Part shown: in pieces, positions 1,199 through 49,560 of the stretch
Layout: each line of letters starts with the position of its first letter
Position numbering within the stretch: position 1 is the first letter of the stretch
Source: a virus
Strand: one strand, 5' to 3'
IMG/VR virus record: IMGVR_UViG_3300013772_000008
Location: 1-52,077 of that record
Length of the DNA stretch: 52,077 bases
The notes under the pieces: generated by a model
The model's input: the letters and a program-made list of their open reading frames with translations, nothing else
The model's database searches: none
What the model was told of the DNA's origin: nothing
Position numbers and translations under genes: made by a program

Positions 1199-1441
1199 TT
1201 AGGGGCAGCTCCAGGCCAGATTAGCGTTAGCGACAACCACCGTGATGCCGTTGGGCACGGCAAAGGTCGTTGTGCCGGGCGCAAACGTGAGCGAATTCCC
1301 GTTGACGGTAACCGGCACGGGGGCTGGGCTATTGTTGACGACTGTCGCTGATGCGACCGCGCCATTGGCGTCGTTGTAGGTCAGTGAGACGGACAGAGTA
1401 CCGTCCCAGAGAGCGCCAATCGCAACCGTTTGTGTCGCCAA
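1199..1441 (-). CDS. Small beta-rich protein, probably virion-associated
   Basis: 80 residues starting at a TTG; an AAGGAG lies 13 bases upstream, which is long. An in-frame TAA lies just upstream, so no earlier start is possible. The sequence is Ala/Val/Thr/Asn rich and looks like a single immunoglobulin-like beta domain. It follows the displaced 3' end of the tail gene at 1462-1506, so before the cassette insertion it was the direct neighbour of the gene now at 2270-3028. Function unknown. Confidence 0.5.
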   Translation of the reverse strand: MATQTVAIGALWDGTLSVSLTYNDANGAVASATVVNNSPAPVPVTVNGNSLTFAPGTTTFAVPNGITVVVANANLAWSCP

Positions 1442-1461: not shown

Positions 1462-1506
1462 TTAGCTCATCTGGACCGTGAGATTCCCCGAGGGGATGCT
1501 GGTTTG
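1462..1506 (-). pseudogene. Displaced original 3' end of the tail gene at 2270-3028
   Basis: Read leftward this encodes QTSIPSGNLTVQMS and TAA. The intact gene ends [15 protein letters not shown] and TGA at 2270-2317. The last seven residues are identical, but five of those seven codons (AAT/AAC, CTC/CTT, GTC/GTA, AGC/TCC and the Ile/Pro codons nearby) and the stop codon differ. The fragment has no start and stops abruptly at the promoter of the HNH cassette. It is best explained as the native C-terminus cut off when the cassette entered. Confidence 0.8.
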
Positions 1507-1520
1507 CCTATTGGAATGGA

Positions 1521-1536
1521 TGGTACAATTAGTACC
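1521..1536 (+). promoter_or_regulatory. Extended -10 promoter and palindrome for the HNH gene at 1561
   Basis: TGGTACAAT (TG, one base, TACAAT) at 1521-1529 is followed 31 bases later by the start codon. No good -35 box is seen, as expected for an extended -10 element. The -10 lies within the perfect inverted repeat GGTAC-AATTA-GTACC (1522-1536), a possible operator. Confidence 0.5.
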
Positions 1537-1560
1537 AGACATACCGTAGGAAGGTGATCG

Positions 1561-2289
1561 ATGGGTCGGATATGTTTGCCCGCATGCATCTGCACTGTCT
1601 GCGGGCAAAGCTTTCATCAACAGAGCCATACGTCCGGCGCCTACTGCAGCCGCGCATGCTATGAACGAATGCGTACTGACTTTCCGGCGCGTTTCTGGGA
1701 CAAGGTCAATCGCGGCGCTGCTAACGCTTGTTGGCCATGGACCGCGTGCTGCTTTCCCAATGGCTACGGGCAGATCTGCAGCAAGGGGAAAGCTAGAGGG
1801 GCACATCGCGTTGCTTGGGAACTGACATACGGGACGATCCCGTCCAACATGAGCGTCTGCCATACGTGTGATAACCGACGATGTGTCAACCCTGGGCATC
1901 TGTTTCTGGGAACTACGACAGAGAATATGCAAGATGCCGCCGTCAAAGGCCGAACGCTTGCTGGAGATCGGCACTGGAGCCGCCGCATGCCGGAGCGGCT
2001 TGCGCGAGGAGACGCGCATCCTTCGCGAGTGCATCCTGAGCGGGTGGCCCGCGGACTGCAATCCGGTGTCCATACCCATCCCGAGCGTTACCCGCGCGGA
2101 GAGGCCAAGCCCAACACGAAGTTGACTAACGTACAGGTAATCGAGATGCGCCATGAGCGGCAGGCAGGAATGACCCTCAAGGCCCTCGCCCACCGCTATG
2201 GCGTCGGCATCTCTACCATACATCGCATCGTGACCGGTCAAACGTGGCAATCTATTACGTCTCCGGCTATCAGGACATCTGTACCGTAA
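1561..2289 (+). CDS. HNH homing-type endonuclease, cassette 1
   Basis: 242 residues, ATG preceded by AGGAAGGTG. An N-terminal Cys-rich zinc-binding segment (residues 9-33, CxxC and CxxxC) is followed by an HNH_3-type core: AHR at 81-83, [19 protein letters not shown] at about 99-117. A linker with HPER-V/Y repeats (residues 140-170) leads to a C-terminal helix-turn-helix (about 178-225: [20 protein letters not shown]) that would read the target DNA. It is on the opposite strand to its neighbours and overlaps the last 20 bases of the tail gene it faces. With its own promoter and a duplicated target 3' end on its far side, it fits a self-contained homing cassette. Nuclease activity is inferred from the family. 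Confidence 0.88.
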
Positions 2290-3028
2290 GGTTCGAGATA
2301 GGGATACTCGGGGTCTGGTTAGCCCCACTCACCGTTATCGTGCCGGGAGCGCCTGCAGTAACCTGCGCAGCGGTAAACACGCCGGTTGTCGGCTGCGTCA
2401 CCATCGTCAGCGTGTGCGTCTGCCCGACGATATTGTTGTCGAGGAACGTAATCGTGAACGTCGTGCTGGTGGCCGTGAACGCCGTCGCCGTTGGAGTCAC
2501 GGTTACGCTGCCAACTGGCACGCTCGCGAGCCCCAGCGCCTCGATGTACTCAAGCAGCCCCGCGCCAGTCGTGCCAACCGGAATGGCAGCCGTGTTCGTG
2601 CCATCGACCGCAATGACGAACGTACCCGTCGCTGCAGTGGCATTCGTCGCCAATGTGTTGACGGCGTTCGTGCCCTTGAGAGCTCCGAAGTAGTACATGT
2701 TACCGGCTGCGAAGGTGGCGCTGTCGCACACCGCGAAATGGGTAGCGGCCGCTGAATAGGCCGCAGTTGACGCGGGGAACGTAACTACTGCTGAGTTAGC
2801 AATAGAAGTAGGAGTCGCGCCAGTCGGGGCGTTGGCGAACGCAATCACCGTCCGGGCATAGCCCCCGACGTTGCCCACTTCAGGCATCGTCGCGCCTGTC
2901 TGCGAGACCGTTGGCAGCGAGGAGCACAAGCACGCATAGAAGTTCGTTGGGGCTGCGTGCGTGGCGGTGTCGAGTTTTGGGAAACGCTCCAAGTAGATAA
3001 CCTGTGCGAAGTTACTTAGGTTTGCCAT
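2270..3028 (-). CDS. Tail-associated structural protein (GGYAR...THF family)
   Basis: 252 residues, ATG with AAGGAG eight bases upstream. Residues 1-120 follow a pattern common in phage tail or fibre proteins: an N-terminal helix, an 'xxLC-S' segment, GGYARTVI at about 55-62, VVTFPAS, then THFAVCDS and YYFGAL near 97-118. The second half (130-250) is Thr/Val rich and probably a beta domain. The final 15 codons are a diverged replacement of the copy stranded at 1462-1506. It lies directly downstream of a terminator, so it may have its own promoter or depend on read-through. Role in the virion surface or tail tip is inferred from family resemblance and position. Confidence 0.65.
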
Positions 3029-14359: not shown

Positions 14360-14373
14360 AGAGGCGTGAAAGT

Positions 14374-14402
14374 GCCGCGGCGGTACGTGAATACCCCGCG
14401 GC
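14374..14402 (+). promoter_or_regulatory. Leader hairpin of the HNH gene
   Basis: GCCGCGG (14374-14380) and CCGCGGC (14396-14402) form a perfect 7-bp stem with a 15-base loop in the untranslated leader, ending 26 bases before the start codon. It could slow elongation or affect initiation. Confidence 0.4.
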
Positions 14403-14428
14403 GTGGCAACAGAAGCTGGAGGCTTCCG

Positions 14429-15334
14429 ATGCGTCTTAAGTCTACATCCCCCCGTCTTTGCTCGATTCCCGATTGCAGGCGTGTGCATAAAGGCTACGGC
14501 CTCTGTTCCCCTCATCTGCAACGTCAAAAGTACGCCGATAGGACTGGCACTTACCGCCAATGCTCCATTGCCGGTTGTGCTCGGACGCATCTCGCGGTCG
14601 GGTATTGCAGAATCCACTACGGACGATGGAAGGCAACTGGCGATCCGCTGCTTACGCGGTTGGAGGCACGACCGCCCCGACTGTGCATAGTCACGGGATG
14701 TGGCAAGCCGCGTCCTGGCAGACTGTATTGCGATATGCACTACGACCGTGTACGGAAGTACGGGGATATCAACTGTGCCCGCGATCCGAAGCGCCCGCGA
14801 CGCGAACGAAGGAAGCCGATCACCGCTGCTGAGTTGCTTGCTAAGTATCCCGTCGAAAATGTCTACCGCCCGCCGGAGGTCGCGGACCGATTCTGGTCGC
14901 ACGTCCAGCGCGGCGGTCCGGATGAATGCTGGGAATGGCAGGGCTTTCGGAATCGTCTCGGCTACGGCAGCGCGTGGTTGGGCATCCCGCACCGCCCAAT
15001 CAATGCCCAACGGGCCGCGTGGATTCTGACGTACGGTGACATTCCCTCGCCGCGCGTGCACGTCTGCCACCACTGCGACAACCCGCCATGCTGTAATCCG
15101 GCGCACCTGTTTCTTGGTAGCCACGCAGAAAACGCCCGAGATATGGCGAGCAAGGGACGTATGCCCTACAGAGTCGCCCTGACGATTGAGCAGGCAGAGC
15201 AAGTGCGGGCACGCTACGCGGTGGGCGATATCACGCAACGTGAACTCGCCCTCCAATTCGGCGTTTGCCAGATGACGATCCACATGGCTGTGAGATGTAA
15301 AGGCTCGTATGCGCTGCGGACCCGGATAATGTAG
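14429..15334 (+). CDS. HNH homing-type endonuclease with zinc-finger array, cassette 2
   Basis: 301 residues from ATG 14429, which has GGAGG seven bases upstream; the earlier GTG at 14366 lies in the leader hairpin region and lacks a ribosome site. Three C-x4/5-C-x9-C-x2-H fingers (residues 11-29, 45-63, 86-104) precede an HNH_3 core: CWEWQGFRNRLGYG (168-180) and VCHHCDNPPCCNPAHLFLG (212-230). In place of the AHR of its relatives it has AQR (193-195). A C-terminal HTH (about 255-290, ITQRELALQFGVCQMTIHMA) should recognise DNA. It is convergent with the tape measure gene, whose stop lies six bases away. Family assignment is firm, homing is inferred. Confidence 0.87.
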   Translation: MRLKSTSPRLCSIPDCRRVHKGYGLCSPHLQRQKYADRTGTYRQCSIAGCARTHLAVGYCRIHYGRWKATGDPLLTRLEARPPRLCIVTGCGKPRPGRLYCDMHYDRVRKYGDINCARDPKRPRRERRKPITAAELLAKYPVENVYRPPEVADRFWSHVQRGGPDECWEWQGFRNRLGYGSAWLGIPHRPINAQRAAWILTYGDIPSPRVHVCHHCDNPPCCNPAHLFLGSHAENARDMASKGRMPYRVALTIEQAEQVRARYAVGDITQRELALQFGVCQMTIHMAVRCKGSYALRTRIM

Positions 15335-40549: not shown

Positions 40550-41158
40550 ATGCGCCCTCAGTGTATCTGTTCCAACTGTGGTCTGAGTAAGCCCCATCAC
40601 GCTCGGGGGATCTGCAAGGCTTGCTATGACCGCGCCCGCCTTGTCGCCCATCCCGATGCTCGCCGCGATTATTTCGCCGCCTACCGTGCGACCCATCCAG
40701 ACGAACGACGGGCCTATTACGTCGCTCATCGCCAGGAGGTGTGTGCCCGAAGCACAGCTCGCCGTGTCGCTCTGCGCGATGAAGCGTTGGCTTATGGCGT
40801 CGCTTATTACGCGCGGCATCGCGCGGAGTTTGCCGCATACTCTGCGGCGCATCGGGGGGAAGAGCGCGCTCGTCGTGCTGCACATCCTGAGATAGGCCGA
40901 GAACAACGCCACCGACGCAGGGCCAGCCTTCGTGTGGCTTTCGTCGCACCCGTCTATTTTCTGGACATTTGGGAACGTGACAAAGCCGTCTGCGGTATCT
41001 GTCATAAGCGAGTGCCCCGGAAGCTTGCGAGCTTGGACCACATTCTGCCCATAGCCTGCGGCGGCACTCATGAACCCCGAAATGTGCGCTTGGCGCATCG
41101 CCGGTGCAACTTCAAGCGCCAGCATCGCGGCGCTGCCCAACTGCGGTTGATTGGCTAG
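40550..41158 (+). CDS. HNH endonuclease with tandem-helix linker, cassette 4
   Basis: 202 residues from ATG 40550 with AGAGGTG upstream; the earlier frame to 40373 is antisense to other coding sequence. An N-terminal Cys cluster (CICSNCG...CKACYDRAR, 5-30) is followed by four or five short repeats of the type (Y)YxAHRxE (40-115) and a C-terminal HNH core: CGICHKRVPRKLASLDHILP and GGTHEPRNVRLAHRRCN (about 148-190). This differs from the HNH_3 type of the other four nucleases. Convergent with the LuxR-type HTH gene, whose stop is 11 bases away. Confidence 0.88.
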   Translation: MRPQCICSNCGLSKPHHARGICKACYDRARLVAHPDARRDYFAAYRATHPDERRAYYVAHRQEVCARSTARRVALRDEALAYGVAYYARHRAEFAAYSAAHRGEERARRAAHPEIGREQRHRRRASLRVAFVAPVYFLDIWERDKAVCGICHKRVPRKLASLDHILPIACGGTHEPRNVRLAHRRCNFKRQHRGAAQLRLIG

Positions 41159-41998: not shown

Positions 41999-42314
41999 AG
42001 TCGTAATCTTCTCCGAGCCAAATCCCGTACACGTCCACACGGTCGGTGTCGGCTTCAAACCACCAGGCGGCGCCGGTGTCCTCGCACGTCAGCGTCAAGC
42101 CGGCGTTGACCAGGTGGACCGTCTGCCCGAGGTGCGTCACCGAACACGCCGCCGTGCGGCCCGCCGTGACGGTCGTGCCGGTAGCCGTTGTGCAGCACTG
42201 AAAATAGCTCGTTACCCTCGTGTATCCGTCTGCTCGTGCTTTCGGCGCCGGGAGGGCAGCGGCAATCGAAAGCATCACCGCTGCGCCAACCCCCAGCGCC
42301 TTGCGCCGCGTCAA
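41982..42314 (-). CDS. Exported protein with Tat-type signal peptide, 110 residues
   Basis: TTG 42314 overlaps the stop of the HNH gene (TTGA) with GGAGG five bases upstream. LTRRKALGVGAAVMLSIAAA followed by LPAPKARA is a twin-arginine-like signal with AxA cleavage. The mature part (about 80 residues) has four Cys and aromatic-rich end (WWFEADTDRVDVYGIWLGED). It should be secreted by the host. Function unknown; an envelope-acting or exclusion factor is possible. Confidence 0.65.
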   Translation of the reverse strand: MTRRKALGVGAAVMLSIAAALPAPKARADGYTRVTSYFQCCTTATGTTVTAGRTAACSVTHLGQTVHLVNAGLTLTCEDTGAAWWFEADTDRVDVYGIWLGEDYDYVWFE

Positions 42315-42898
42315 ACGTGCCTCCAAGTCTTGCCATGAATCACGTTATAAATGGCCGTAGGACCCACGCCGAACGCATTGGCTATCTGTTTCTGAAACTC
42401 TCCTTTCGCTACGCGACTCCGAATCTCGCGTACCGCACCCTCGGTAAGTTTTGATGAAACGTGATTTTCACCGCGTGGTAACCGCTCGGGGTGTAAGTGA
42501 TTACCGCTGTTATTGCCGCGTGGTCGTCGTTCAGGATGCGTGCGACTACCATGTCGCTCTCCGCGTGCTAGGCACTCGGGGTGTAGGCGACTACCGCTTC
42601 TATTTCCGGTAGCGGATCGTCCCTTCGCGGTCATATCGCGATTGTTGTCGGCGACGGTTCCCAGAAACAGATGATTCGGTCGCACGCATGGCGGGTTGTC
42701 GCAGTGGTGGCAAACGCAGAAACCGGAAGGGATGGGGCCGAATGTCAACGTCCAAGCAATTCGGTGCGTCCCGGTCTTGCGGCCGGTTCTACCGTCTCGG
42801 GCCTGCCCATAACCGCCGGTGGCTTTGCCGCCCTGCCATTCCCAACAATCGGCCGAGCGTTTGACCTTAGTCCAGAAGTTGGCAGTTGTGTCGGTCAT
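42311..42898 (-). CDS. HNH homing-type endonuclease, co-directional copy 1
   Basis: 195 residues from ATG 42898 in a TGATG overlap. HNH_3 core: DCWEWQGGKATGGYG (near 17-31), THRIAW (44-49), VCHHCDNPPCVRPNHLFLG (near 62-80). Then three HPER-type repeats (SGSRLHPECLARGERHG, SRTHPERRPRG, NHLHPERLPRG) and a C-terminal HTH (KLTEGAVREIRSR... IANAFGVGPTAIYNVI). It sits in the leftward operon with tight overlaps on both sides and has no own promoter. Confidence 0.88.
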   Translation of the reverse strand: MTDTTANFWTKVKRSADCWEWQGGKATGGYGQARDGRTGRKTGTHRIAWTLTFGPIPSGFCVCHHCDNPPCVRPNHLFLGTVADNNRDMTAKGRSATGNRSGSRLHPECLARGERHGSRTHPERRPRGNNSGNHLHPERLPRGENHVSSKLTEGAVREIRSRVAKGEFQKQIANAFGVGPTAIYNVIHGKTWRHV

Positions 42899-43137
42899 CA
42901 GACCTGCACCGCGCGGTCTGTCCGGTACTTCGACGGCACTAGCAACGTCGGCATCTCGCGCGCCGCCGTATTGGCGCACTTCGTCGAACAGTAAAGTCCA
43001 CTGACCGCGCAGTGTGCCCAGCCGGCGCGACCGATGCGCTGCCCACAGAGTTTGCAGACGGCCCATTGCGCGGCGGCGGCTGATAGCGGGATGCGACGTA
43101 ACGATTGGGGGTGGGCATCTTGGTATGAAGTGGTCAT
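42898..43137 (-). CDS. Zinc-finger protein, 79 residues
   Basis: ATG 43137 overlaps the stop of the HNH gene upstream (ATGA) and has AAAGGA before it. CKLCGQRIGRAGWAHCAVSG and LYCSTKCANTA form a zinc ribbon of the same kind as the microproteins at 6118-6607. It is placed between two HNH genes. Function unknown. Confidence 0.6.
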   Translation of the reverse strand: MTTSYQDAHPQSLRRIPLSAAAAQWAVCKLCGQRIGRAGWAHCAVSGLYCSTKCANTAAREMPTLLVPSKYRTDRAVQV

Positions 43138-43643
43138 GCTGTCATCCTTTCGACGGGCTGTACGTGCCCCCACGACTTGCCGTCGCGAATAAACCCGACC
43201 GCTCTGCGCGAGACGCTGTAGCGCCGGGCCAAATCGCCCATACTTACGAAGCCGAATGAAGACTTCATTTCGGCGACTTGCTGGGCCGTGAGTTTGGCGG
43301 CCCCGTTGCGTTCGCCGCGTGCTAGCCGGTCGGGGTGGGTGCGCGCTCCGTTGCGCTCACCGAGAGCGCCGCGACCCTTTAAGGCCGAGTCACGATTGTT
43401 ATCCGCCCGTGTACCGATGAAAAGATGGCCCGGTCGGCAGCACGGGGGGTTATCGCATCTGTGAAGTACGCATAGGCCAGGTGGTATGGGCCCACGGGCC
43501 AATTCCCAAGCAAGCCTGTGAGCCTTCACATGTTTTCCACCCCAGTGTGACTGGCCATATCCCTTCGACGTTCGGCTCGCCTGCCATTCCCAGCAAACCG
43601 GCCCACATTCAACATTCGCCCAAAAGGCCGCGGACGTGTTCAT
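43134..43643 (-). CDS. HNH homing-type endonuclease, co-directional copy 2
   Basis: 169 residues, ATG overlapping the stop of the ATPase gene (ATGA). VCWEWQASRTSKGYG (16-30), AHRLAWELARGPIPPGLCVL and HRCDNPPCCRPGHLFIG (about 61-77), one HPDR repeat, then a C-terminal HTH (KLTAQQVAEMKSS; ARRYSVSRRAVGFIRDGKSW). Closest in build to the nucleases at 42311 and 1561. It breaks the ATPase-zinc-finger pair without disturbing either frame. Confidence 0.88.
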   Translation of the reverse strand: MNTSAAFWANVECGPVCWEWQASRTSKGYGQSHWGGKHVKAHRLAWELARGPIPPGLCVLHRCDNPPCCRPGHLFIGTRADNNRDSALKGRGALGERNGARTHPDRLARGERNGAAKLTAQQVAEMKSSFGFVSMGDLARRYSVSRRAVGFIRDGKSWGHVQPVERMTA

Positions 43644-47282: not shown

Positions 47283-47491
47283 CGTGTCGCTCCCTCTGGA
47301 ACTTGCTGATTGTGCGCTAACTCCTTGCTGTTAGCAAGGTTCGGAGTTACAAAAAAGGGCGGGTCGCGCATGAGCTTATCCAGCGCAATTCGTACTGCGT
47401 GACTACGATTCAGGCCGAACCGCCGGCTCATATCACCAAGGAATGCGTCCTGCTCAGCCGAAATCACCACGGTTCGCCTGACTTCCGCCAT
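47279..47491 (-). CDS. Ribbon-helix-helix regulator, 70 residues
   Basis: ATG 47491 with GGAGG six bases upstream. RRTVVISAEQDAFLGDMSRR, then FGLNRSHAVRIALDKLM (residues 5-42) is a clear ribbon-helix-helix (CopG/Arc) domain: basic beta strand, helix, 'NRSHAVR' turn, helix. First gene of the long leftward operon, directly downstream of its promoter; it probably acts as the Cro-like early regulator. Confidence 0.8.
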   Translation of the reverse strand: MAEVRRTVVISAEQDAFLGDMSRRFGLNRSHAVRIALDKLMRDPPFFVTPNLANSKELAHNQQVPEGATR

Positions 47492-47513
47492 GTCTAACCT
47501 CCTGTCCTTTCTA

Positions 47514-47542
47514 ATAGTAAGCTTCGTTCATACCATTGTCAA
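47514..47542 (-). promoter_or_regulatory. Main leftward early promoter
   Basis: Read leftward: TTGACA (47542-47537), 17-base spacer, TACTAT (47519-47514). A perfect -35 and a near-consensus -10 in an AT-rich gap between divergent regulators. The ATG of the regulator gene lies 22 bases downstream of the -10. Confidence 0.8.
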
Positions 47543-47549
47543 GAGGTAT
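47530..47549. promoter_or_regulatory. Putative repressor operator
   Basis: ATACC (47530-47534) and GGTAT (47545-47549) form an inverted repeat centred on the -35 box of the leftward promoter. AGGTATTT and AGGTTATTT follow as direct repeats. Binding here by the CI-like or ribbon-helix-helix protein would switch off the lytic operon. Confidence 0.5.
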
Positions 47550-47609
47550 TTAGGTTATTTTGGCCCAAAGTATGAAATCATCTTACCGACAGCAAGGGAG
47601 AAGTCGGGG

Positions 47610-47999
47610 ATGGTTTGCGTGACTGATAGTGATGTCGGACCTCGTATTCGCGACACGCGCAAGGCGCTGCATATGAGCCAGGAACAGTTCGGGGCGCTGG
47701 TGAGCCTCTCGGATAGCTACATCTCTCAGATCGAGACGAACAAGAAAAGGCCGACCCCCGAGACGCTTGAAGCGATCAGCAAACGGACTGGCTTGGATTA
47801 CGAAGAGCTGTTGCGACTAGCCCACTATTTGCCTGCAAGCGACGACGAAGACGCCGCCTTAGCAGACCCCGAACTAGACCTGCTCTTCAACCAGCTTCGC
47901 ACCGCAGACCTGCCAGAGACTGACCTCATGTACGTCAAGGAGACGATTCGGCTCGCGCTGAAGATTCGCCGGGAACGTGCCGCACAGTCCGAGTCGTGA
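47610..47999 (+). CDS. CI-like repressor (XRE family HTH)
   Basis: 129 residues from ATG 47610 with GGGAG upstream; an open extension to 47490 runs through the operator and is rejected. XRE helix-turn-helix at 12-65: VGPRIRDTRKALHMSQEQFG, then SDSYISQIETNKKRPTPETL. The C-terminal half is acidic and helical and lacks the Ser/Lys autoprotease of lambda CI. With the next gene it forms the repressor/anti-repressor-protease pair seen in ICEBs1-like elements. It should keep the leftward promoter off in the lysogen. Confidence 0.85.
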   Translation: MVCVTDSDVGPRIRDTRKALHMSQEQFGALVSLSDSYISQIETNKKRPTPETLEAISKRTGLDYEELLRLAHYLPASDDEDAALADPELDLLFNQLRTADLPETDLMYVKETIRLALKIRRERAAQSES

Positions 48000-48385
48000 C
48001 CTGGCGCTCGCCCGATGCCGACGCATGGGTGTCTCGGCTCGGCCTCGTGGTGATCTGGCGCGACCTGCAAGAACTCGACGAGCTGATAGTGCCGCCAGTG
48101 ATTGCGCTACGAGCCACCACAACGGCCCCTGAGCGTCGCTGGCTAATCTTCCACGCAATTGCCCATCTCCGGCTGCACACGGGTAACCAGCTTTATCTGG
48201 TGCGTTCCGGCGACAGCGTGCGACTCGCCAAGCAAGAGCATCAGGCCGAAGTGTGGACAGCGCGGCTACTTGTACCGGGTTGCGAGTTAATGGCGGCAAT
48301 TGCCGACGGATTGGCCGGTGACGAGCTGGCGGAGATGTTTAGCGTTCCGGCCGCAGGCATTGCTTTGGGGATAGGGCTACTGTAA
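47996..48385 (+). CDS. ImmA/IrrE-like metalloprotease, Glu-less motif
   Basis: 129 residues in ATGA-like overlap with the repressor gene. The order and sequence (RRWLIFHAIAHLRLHTGNQL near 47-66; HQAEVWTARLLVP near 81-93) match ImmA/IrrE peptidases that cleave XRE repressors after DNA damage. The expected HExxH is HAIAH (53-57): the two metal His are kept but the catalytic Glu is Ala. It may bind the repressor without cutting it, or represent a known Glu-less subgroup. Confidence 0.75.
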   Translation: MTWRSPDADAWVSRLGLVVIWRDLQELDELIVPPVIALRATTTAPERRWLIFHAIAHLRLHTGNQLYLVRSGDSVRLAKQEHQAEVWTARLLVPGCELMAAIADGLAGDELAEMFSVPAAGIALGIGLL

Positions 48386-49560
48386 TGCGCAACCCACAAG
48401 GTGAAGGCTCAAAAATCCGGCAGCGGCCCGACGGACGGTACACCGCTTCGATTCGCATCGGTGACGGCCGGCGCAAGTCCGTCTACGGCCGCACCTATAA
48501 TGAAGCGCGGTCGAAGCTGGCCCGCGTGCGTGACCAACGCCGGCAGCATGTGCCGGTGCCATCCGAGCGGCTGAAACTCAGCACGTACCTGGACGAATGG
48601 CTGGCGGGCAAAGCGTCGGAGATCCGTCCTGGCACCTACGCGCCGTACGAGTCGCATATCAGGCTGCATCTGACGCCGCAACTCGGCAGCATCGTCCTGG
48701 TGAGGCTTGAGCCGGGGCACGTACGCCGGTTGTACGCCGGGCTGGTTGCCGGCGGCATGTCGCCTACAACCGTGCGCCGCGTCCACGCGGTACTGCGTCA
48801 GGCGCTGCAGCAGGCGATGCGCGACGGACTGGTATCGCGCAACGTCGCCGCCCTGGTGCGCCCTCCACGGGCTGCGGCCTTCACGCCGGTGGGGCTATCA
48901 CCCGAGCAGGCGCGGGCTTTCCTCGCAGCGGTGGCCGGTGACCACCTAGAGGCGCTGTACTGGCTCCTGCTCACGACAGGGTTGCGTGAAGGCGAACTAC
49001 TAGCGCTCAAATGGTCGGACGTCAATCTGGACGGCACTCAGCTCGCGGTACGGCGCACGCTTCGAACACGGGGTGGTGAGCAGTTCCTCGAGGAACCGAA
49101 AACGGCGAGCTCGAAGCGTGAGGTGATGCTCACCGGGCACATGGTTGATTTGCTGCGCCGCCACCGCGCCGCGCAACGCGTGCAACGTCTGCGCGTGGCC
49201 GACCTATGGCAGGACCAGGACCTCGTATTCTGCGATGGCGTTGGCCGGCCGCTTTCACCCTACCGTCTGCTCCGCACGGAGTTCCGCGGTCATCTGCGGC
49301 GGTTGGGTTTGCCGGCAGCGATGCGTCTGCACGACCTCAGACACGCGTTCGCGACGATGCTGATCGCGGACGGCGTGCCCGTCTCGACCGTATCCAGCAT
49401 CCTCGGGCATAGTAGGATCAGCACGACACTAAACGTCTACGTGCATCCCTCGACCGGGCAGCAGCAGCGGGCGATAGACGCGCTGGATCGGCTGCTACCG
49501 GGGGCAGGTGGTGGTCAAGATGGTTGTACAAGTTCGGGTGAAACGGTCCAACACGGTTGA
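48385..49560 (+). CDS. int: Tyrosine-family integrase
   Basis: 391 residues; ATG overlaps the preceding TAA (TAATG). Arm-binding N-terminal part (GDGRRKSVYGRTYNEARSKL) and a SAM-like core-binding domain (62-165) precede the catalytic domain with Arg201 (TGLREGELLALKW), Lys near 239-244 (PKTASSKREV), His316 and Arg319 (LHDLRH), His342 (LGHSRISTT) and Tyr352 (NVYVHPS). All catalytic residues are present. It recombines attP with the host site; the tRNA-like sequence 15 bases downstream is the likely attP core. Confidence 0.93.
   Translation: MRNPQGEGSKIRQRPDGRYTASIRIGDGRRKSVYGRTYNEARSKLARVRDQRRQHVPVPSERLKLSTYLDEWLAGKASEIRPGTYAPYESHIRLHLTPQLGSIVLVRLEPGHVRRLYAGLVAGGMSPTTVRRVHAVLRQALQQAMRDGLVSRNVAALVRPPRAAAFTPVGLSPEQARAFLAAVAGDHLEALYWLLLTTGLREGELLALKWSDVNLDGTQLAVRRTLRTRGGEQFLEEPKTASSKREVMLTGHMVDLLRRHRAAQRVQRLRVADLWQDQDLVFCDGVGRPLSPYRLLRTEFRGHLRRLGLPAAMRLHDLRHAFATMLIADGVPVSTVSSILGHSRISTTLNVYVHPSTGQQQRAIDALDRLLPGAGGGQDGCTSSGETVQHG

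Follow-up and report, generated by a model that had tools for sequence, protein, structure and literature searches.

A locus in IMG/VR record IMGVR_UViG_3300013772_000008 raises the question of how an antisense HNH endonuclease gene came to be set into the 3' end of a virion gene, with the virion gene's end repeated on the far side of the insert. The analysis covered the whole record, a stretch of 52,077 bases that is called the window here. It belongs to a tailed phage, with terminase, portal, and tape-measure-like genes, and it also codes for a capsid-E gene and a GH25 lysin; the closest terminases are about 45-55% identical to its own. Because a tyrosine integrase gene and a repressor-like gene are present, the phage is probably temperate. 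Besides three antisense HNH genes, the window holds two tandem HNH_3 genes in the early region in the sense orientation (Table 1).

Table 1. Features of the window referred to in the text, by position in the 52,077-base stretch.
Feature	Position	Strand	Remarks
Next late-operon gene (80 aa)	1199-1441	-	Ig-like match below cut-off
E2, stranded second gene-end copy	1462-1506	-	QTSIPSGNLTVQMS-TAA (14 codons plus stop)
Mirror frame of first antisense HNH gene	1462-2328	-	Open for 288 codons; ends in frame with E2
Imperfect hairpin in HNH leader	1507-1550	+	3' arm enters the HNH ribosome-binding site
First antisense HNH endonuclease gene	1561-2289	+	PF13392 (HNH_3), HTH-like C-terminus; antisense to late operon
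E1, end joined to virion gene body	2270-2317	-	
Virion gene (252 aa)	2270-3028	-	Gp80-type domain (PF23140) at aa 21-125, C-terminal part, then E1
Second antisense HNH gene	14366-15334	+	HNH_3; at 3' end of tape-measure gene; no doubled gene end
Mirror frame of second antisense HNH gene	15343-14333	-	Fully open
Third antisense HNH gene	40550-41158	+	PF14279/PF01844, both over cut-off; between an early gene and a C5 methylase gene
Mirror frame of third antisense HNH gene	41173-40406	-	Open from HNH ATG to end (202 codons)
First tandem HNH_3 gene, sense	42311-43066	-	Early region
Second tandem HNH_3 gene, sense	43134-43643	-	Early region
Repressor-like gene	47490-47999		
Tyrosine integrase gene	48385-49560		

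The antisense HNH gene lies exactly where the original prediction had placed it, and the second gene end that was reported beyond it is real. Among 646,953 stop-anchored pairs in the window, the pair formed by the end that is joined to the virion gene body (E1) and the stranded end (E2) has the highest score, 59, with the next pair at 52. In addition, the window has two occurrences of the codon pattern for NLTVQM, whereas 100 shuffles gave none. The likeness of E1 and E2 is not due to chance. E2 is in a reading frame that differs from that of the virion gene, and it lies 2-3 nt ahead of the ribosome-binding-site-like AAGGAG of the next gene. Both joins, that of the body to E1 and that of E2 to the next gene, appear seamless.

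The two ends differ in their codons more than in their residues. Of the 36 bases in the last 12 codons, 12 differ, and 10 of 12 residues are the same, six of them through different codons. Random substitution of an equal number of bases keeps 4.7 residues on average, which gives a neutral P of about 5e-5, a value that is flattered by the fact that the E1/E2 match was picked by its residues. The original description has both copies keeping the same NLTVQMS and differing at most wobble positions, of which the latter was overstated: four of the last seven codons differ (those for N, L, V, and S) and three are identical, while third positions differ in six of the last 12. Because 10 of 12 residues are kept, six through different codons, E1 and E2 were most likely translated gene ends while they diverged, either of two alleles or of two paralogues, and a copy that drifted freely is unlikely. 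Gap-free similarity between them may reach 27 codons (1465-1545), the extension being weak (P 0.004-0.014).

The HNH gene itself is a clear member of its family, since its HNH_3 domain scores 56.2 bits against PF13392 vs a curated cut-off of 24.8; a putative C-terminal HTH is matched by PHROG 517 (E 3.4e-7), with Pfam HTH matches below cut-off. The HNH gene and the virion gene share 20 nt, and the HNH stop codon is supplied by the complement of the virion gene's last codons. As compared among the 60 relatives from 80 loci that could be aligned, its C-terminus is long: 13 residues follow the conserved Trp, as against 3-4 in 42 of the 60 and at least 13 in only two. Because these extra residues are mostly read off the complement of E1, it seems that a join near 2258-2272 cost the HNH gene its original stop. 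At its other end, the HNH leader adjoins E2 and contains an imperfect hairpin, which occupies the same stretch as the weak extension of the E1/E2 homology (to 1545). The fold of 1500-1570 has a z of -3.2 and is matched in stability by none of 200 shuffles; the hairpin could damp translation of the HNH gene. A scan of 1300-2500 gave no sigma-70 promoter. A group I or group II intron was considered and rejected, since Rfam gave no match within 1400-2400 at E values of up to 1 and none across the window at gathering scores. An integrase attachment site at the insert was likewise considered and rejected.

The gene into whose end the HNH gene is set was called a tail gene in the original prediction; the families that it matches are labelled fibre protein (PF23140) and head protein (PHROG 240), and it is referred to here as a virion gene. 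The match of its product to the Gp80 family (PF23140) has an E of 1e-12. Relatives with this domain are short (128-130 aa in 65 of the 79 complete ORFs found at 80 loci), and the window's protein carries about 110 residues beyond them. This additional C-terminal part has no significant relative, the best PHROG match having an E of 0.18 and none being found in phages. The best match of the protein to a solved structure is weak (E 0.017), and its structure model has a mean pLDDT of 61 and is of low confidence past residue 140 or so. Many Gp80-family proteins terminate in a strand like GNLSVTLA. At one other locus (L034, 3001-3810) a 269-aa gene contains two Gp80 domains fused in tandem, the sole case among 85 loci. 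At another (MW202481.1, 3001-4076, from Podoviridae sp. ctXG6705) the Gp80-type gene is immediately followed by an annotated HNH gene in the sense orientation; judged by eye, its sequence differs in make from that of the window's HNH gene.

A relative of the virion gene without the insert would reveal which end is native, and several routes were followed in the search for one. No uninterrupted allele was found by tblastn in phages, by pattern scans of viral and genome collections, or in the full records from which 10 of 12 terminase loci came. None was found either in two terminase-sharing contigs of about 30.7 kb, which are not syntenic at the HNH site. The gene at 726-1154 has relatives at four loci; of the three that were examined, two have other upstream genes and the third is a contig already covered, and none gave an uninterrupted allele. 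Neither the C-terminal part alone nor the E2 peptide alone gave a match when used as a query. Scans for NLTVQMS followed by a stop (with leucine as CTN) returned one viral and nine genome loci, none of them beside a Gp80-like gene as judged from the upstream translation. Neither an empty site nor a donor was found in the phage, virus, and genome records searched, collections from which records very close to the window may be missing.

A survey of HNH flanks indicated how unusual the doubled end is. A flank-to-flank, stop-anchored test was applied to 83 of 84 HNH loci (80 from the survey and four from the window; one survey locus was excluded for its short flank), some of the survey loci being near copies of one another. 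The window pair scores 59, which is reached by two of 6,806 cross-locus pairs, in a test that was selected after the pair had been seen and that suits its form. The next same-locus pair (at L180) scores 47, a value reached by 27 of the 6,806 cross pairs, and a clear doubled gene end was found at none of the 82 other HNH loci by this test. In a cruder whole-flank scan, which allows any position within 1.5 kb and all frames, the window pair ranks third, with a cross-pair P of 0.015. Doubled gene ends are no general habit of such HNH genes.

Taken together, these findings describe a scar that is both real and unusual; its best interpretation is as the counterpart in a phage of the mobile-ORF (mORF) hybrids of fungal mitochondria that are discussed below. 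The original prediction had seen a homing cassette that carries its own recoded gene end and thereby protects the new allele from its own nuclease. The part that stands is the structure, two diverged, formerly coding ends that flank the HNH gene in a mORF-like order; the part left without its counterpart is the native allele, as no uninterrupted relative was found in the collections searched. An insertion beside the site combined with ordinary divergence of alleles would give the same letters as recoding for self-resistance.

We give about an even chance to an origin by break repair between two divergent alleles, which joined E1 to the body and left E2 behind as a scar. According to this proposal, the alleles would be those of a Gp80-type virion gene, whose 3' end a free-standing HNH gene would have reached in the course of the repair. 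Homology within the gene would have mended one flank and illegitimate joining the other, with the result that the complete end of one allele (E1) became linked to the body while about 14 codons of the other allele (E2) were stranded beyond the HNH gene. The virion gene would have remained complete, and E2 would be the scar. We infer both the repair event and the nuclease as its cause. The apparent loss of the HNH stop at E1, together with a leader that adjoins E2, fits homology repair on one side and illegitimate joining on the other; one-sided illegitimate repair of double-strand breaks is documented for T4 introns (PMC2988022). As to which end is foreign, we lean, and only lean, towards E1 rather than E2 as the end that came with the HNH gene, since it is the stranded end that is native in the fungal mitochondrial precedent (PMC3630166).

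If the two ends diverged as paralogues rather than as alleles, another history would follow. Two related virion genes would have stood in tandem, and the HNH insertion would have deleted the body of the second, leaving E2 and not touching E1. Such a history would explain why both ends resemble normal translated ends and why the joins of body to E1 and of E2 to the next gene appear seamless, and the fused double Gp80 gene mentioned above is a known instance of two such domains side by side. It requires, however, the extra deletion of a gene body, and tandem Gp80 matches are rare, being found at one of 85 loci (flanks of at most 3 kb) and suggested by the count of 678 places in 677 phage records; a scan of the window gave no second Gp80 match. 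We regard the loss of a paralogue as rather unlikely.

Break repair could also have had the opposite polarity, with the body and E1 resident and the HNH gene bringing E2, a piece of a donor's gene end, on its 5' side. The continuity of body and E1, between which no join is visible, speaks for this possibility, as do the apparent disturbance of the HNH gene on its E1 side and the position of the leader hairpin next to E2. However, E2 stands as close to the ribosome-binding site of the next gene as a resident end would, and the stranded end of the fungal precedent is, again, the native one (PMC3630166); this polarity is decidedly unlikely. Very little credence is given to a target-site or other duplication that arose within the lineage when the insert came in and then drifted. 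E1 and E2 are indeed direct repeats around the insert, but an untranslated copy would rarely keep its residues to the extent given by the neutral test above. Convergence or chance on a short C-terminal beta-strand motif common to virion proteins is equally improbable: many Gp80-family proteins do end in similar strands, but none of the NLTVQMS-stop loci lies, to judge from the upstream translation, beside a Gp80-like gene, and the E1/E2 pair is the best in the window.

On the operon strand, a frame that runs across the insert is free of stops. The frame that runs antisense to an HNH gene in register with it, on the operon strand, is called here the mirror frame. That of the first HNH gene ends in frame with E2, which would happen in one of three cases by chance. 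The ATG of the second mirror frame overlaps the tape-measure stop (ATGA), and its stop comes 1 base before the ATG of the next gene; the third likewise begins in an ATGA overlap with the upstream stop and ends in a GTGA overlap with a GTG start of the methylase frame. Judged from the sequence, overlaps of this kind are the packing typical of translated operon genes. None of the three antisense HNH genes found in the window has a stop in its mirror frame, 745 codons in all, for which the chance at the window rate is about 7e-6; for the two HNH_3 mirror frames it is about 1.7e-4. The two sense HNH genes have seven and five mirror stops, and each of 26 other ORFs that were taken as likely genes has at least one, with 150 in 9,484 codons overall.

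The idea, which was formed on the window, was then tried on other loci under two rules for calling orientation. By the first, which uses the longest ORFs, the mirror frame is fully open in six of 13 antisense HNH genes, one of 37 sense genes, and seven of 30 in mixed surroundings (P 6e-4 against neighbour rates; Fisher 6.5e-4). By the second, which uses amino-acid-weighted ORFs and was applied to 116 HNH ORFs, 95 of them distinct and usable, the numbers are 13 of 27, five of 61, and two of seven. The expected numbers are 5.6 for antisense genes (P 2e-4) and 10.3 for sense genes, with the window's two HNH_3 genes included among the 27. The effect depends on base composition. At a GC content of 0.50-0.62, seven of 16 antisense genes are mirror-open vs none of 23 sense genes; at 0.62-0.80, the six of 11 antisense genes that are open do not differ significantly from the expected 4.27 (P 0.21), and five of 27 sense genes are open. 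Four loci (L145, L130, L132, and L191) were each counted more than once in these figures; counted per contig with the window excluded, nine of 20 are mirror-open. Loci with an antisense HNH gene and a fully open mirror frame include L172, L139, L125, L176, and, most striking, L186, whose neighbours carry about 4% mirror stops.

Other observations bear on how far this pattern should be trusted. Several antisense HNH genes have 4-9 mirror stops. The other two antisense frames show no depletion of stops in the antisense HNH group, and in the sense +1 frame at GC 0.50-0.62 that group has 2.75 stops per 100 codons vs 3.93 in the comparison group, which consists of all other HNH genes, sense and otherwise. 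Composition or codon usage could lie behind part of the openness, and an open mirror frame that extends into the flank may slightly bias the orientation call. The pattern is best taken as a real lead and not as a proven rule. It is possible, though in our estimate somewhat short of an even chance, that antisense phage HNH genes are selected for stop-free mirror frames, often coupled to their neighbours, that let the ribosomes of the operon cross; at the present locus such a frame would end on E2, and the insert would be readable both ways. Passage of operon ribosomes across the insert is the likeliest use that the arrangement suggests. If the pattern holds in a larger sample, it would show how an antisense insert avoids silencing the operon around it.

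Several known systems share parts of this arrangement, as they are described in the portions of the cited papers on which the comparison draws. In a search of titles and abstracts, neither an antisense HNH gene between doubled gene ends nor an open mirror frame of an antisense HNH gene came up. The original statement that no phage counterpart is known thus holds, at the level of titles and abstracts, in its narrow form (an antisense HNH gene between doubled ends); in its broad form it gives way to two cases in print, ShiLan and e14. Satellites embedded in their helpers, in the late genes of prophages, also place a mobile element within a phage late gene (PMC10111431). The mob and seg genes of T4, which are free-standing HNH and GIY-YIG endonuclease genes, resemble the window's HNH gene in standing alone beside a conserved phage gene; doubled coding ends, which the window has, go unmentioned for them in the sections of PMC2988022 drawn on here. 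The phage case nearest to the window, among the papers drawn on here, is the ShiLan domain, a hidden HNH that has been inserted in phage methylase genes; the first 11 in-frame residues of the insert resemble those that follow the insertion site (PMC11855218). As in the window, an HNH gene has been inserted into a phage gene and the frame on the host strand is left open. However, the ShiLan HNH gene shares the strand of the methylase gene, which reads through it in a different frame, whereas the window's HNH gene is antisense and the host gene ends before it.

The e14 element of E. coli K-12 is inserted in icd, which keeps a working end with 12 base changes and two residue changes, while on the far side of the element there is a 165-bp end, icdC (PMC11148124). 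The likeness to the window, in that an insert lies close to where a protein gene ends and a second end lies beyond it, is a loose one, since e14 is a prophage with an integrase, whereas the window's insert is about 760 bp and holds the HNH gene only. An integrative element of the e14 kind was considered for the window and rejected: only the HNH gene is seen in the insert, the ends differ as described above, and the integrase gene lies elsewhere.

The closest parallel is with the mORF hybrids of Glomus and Allomyces mitochondria, in which the core of a gene is followed by a complete end, an endonuclease gene, and a stranded end (PMC3630166). The likeness to fungal mitochondria drawn in the original prediction is borne out in this respect, as the order of parts in the window is the same: a complete end, an endonuclease gene, and a second end, the two ends presumably having come from the same gene. 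This order is shared by the four mORF hybrids, in atp6, atp9, cox2, and nad3. For the ends of the atp6 hybrid, DNA identity is 63.5% and protein identity 91% (PMC3630166). There are differences as well. Native relatives reveal which end of a mORF hybrid is foreign, whereas no such relatives were found for the window; the endonuclease of the atp6 hybrid is of the LAGLIDADG family, whereas the window has an HNH gene, in a phage; and two of the four mORFs are in phase with their genes, whereas the HNH gene is antisense. If the direction of the exchange were proved, it would mean that phage HNH genes can enter coding sites and bring a working gene end with them, as the endonucleases of fungal mitochondria do, and two separate literatures, that on phages and that on fungal mitochondria, would become linked.
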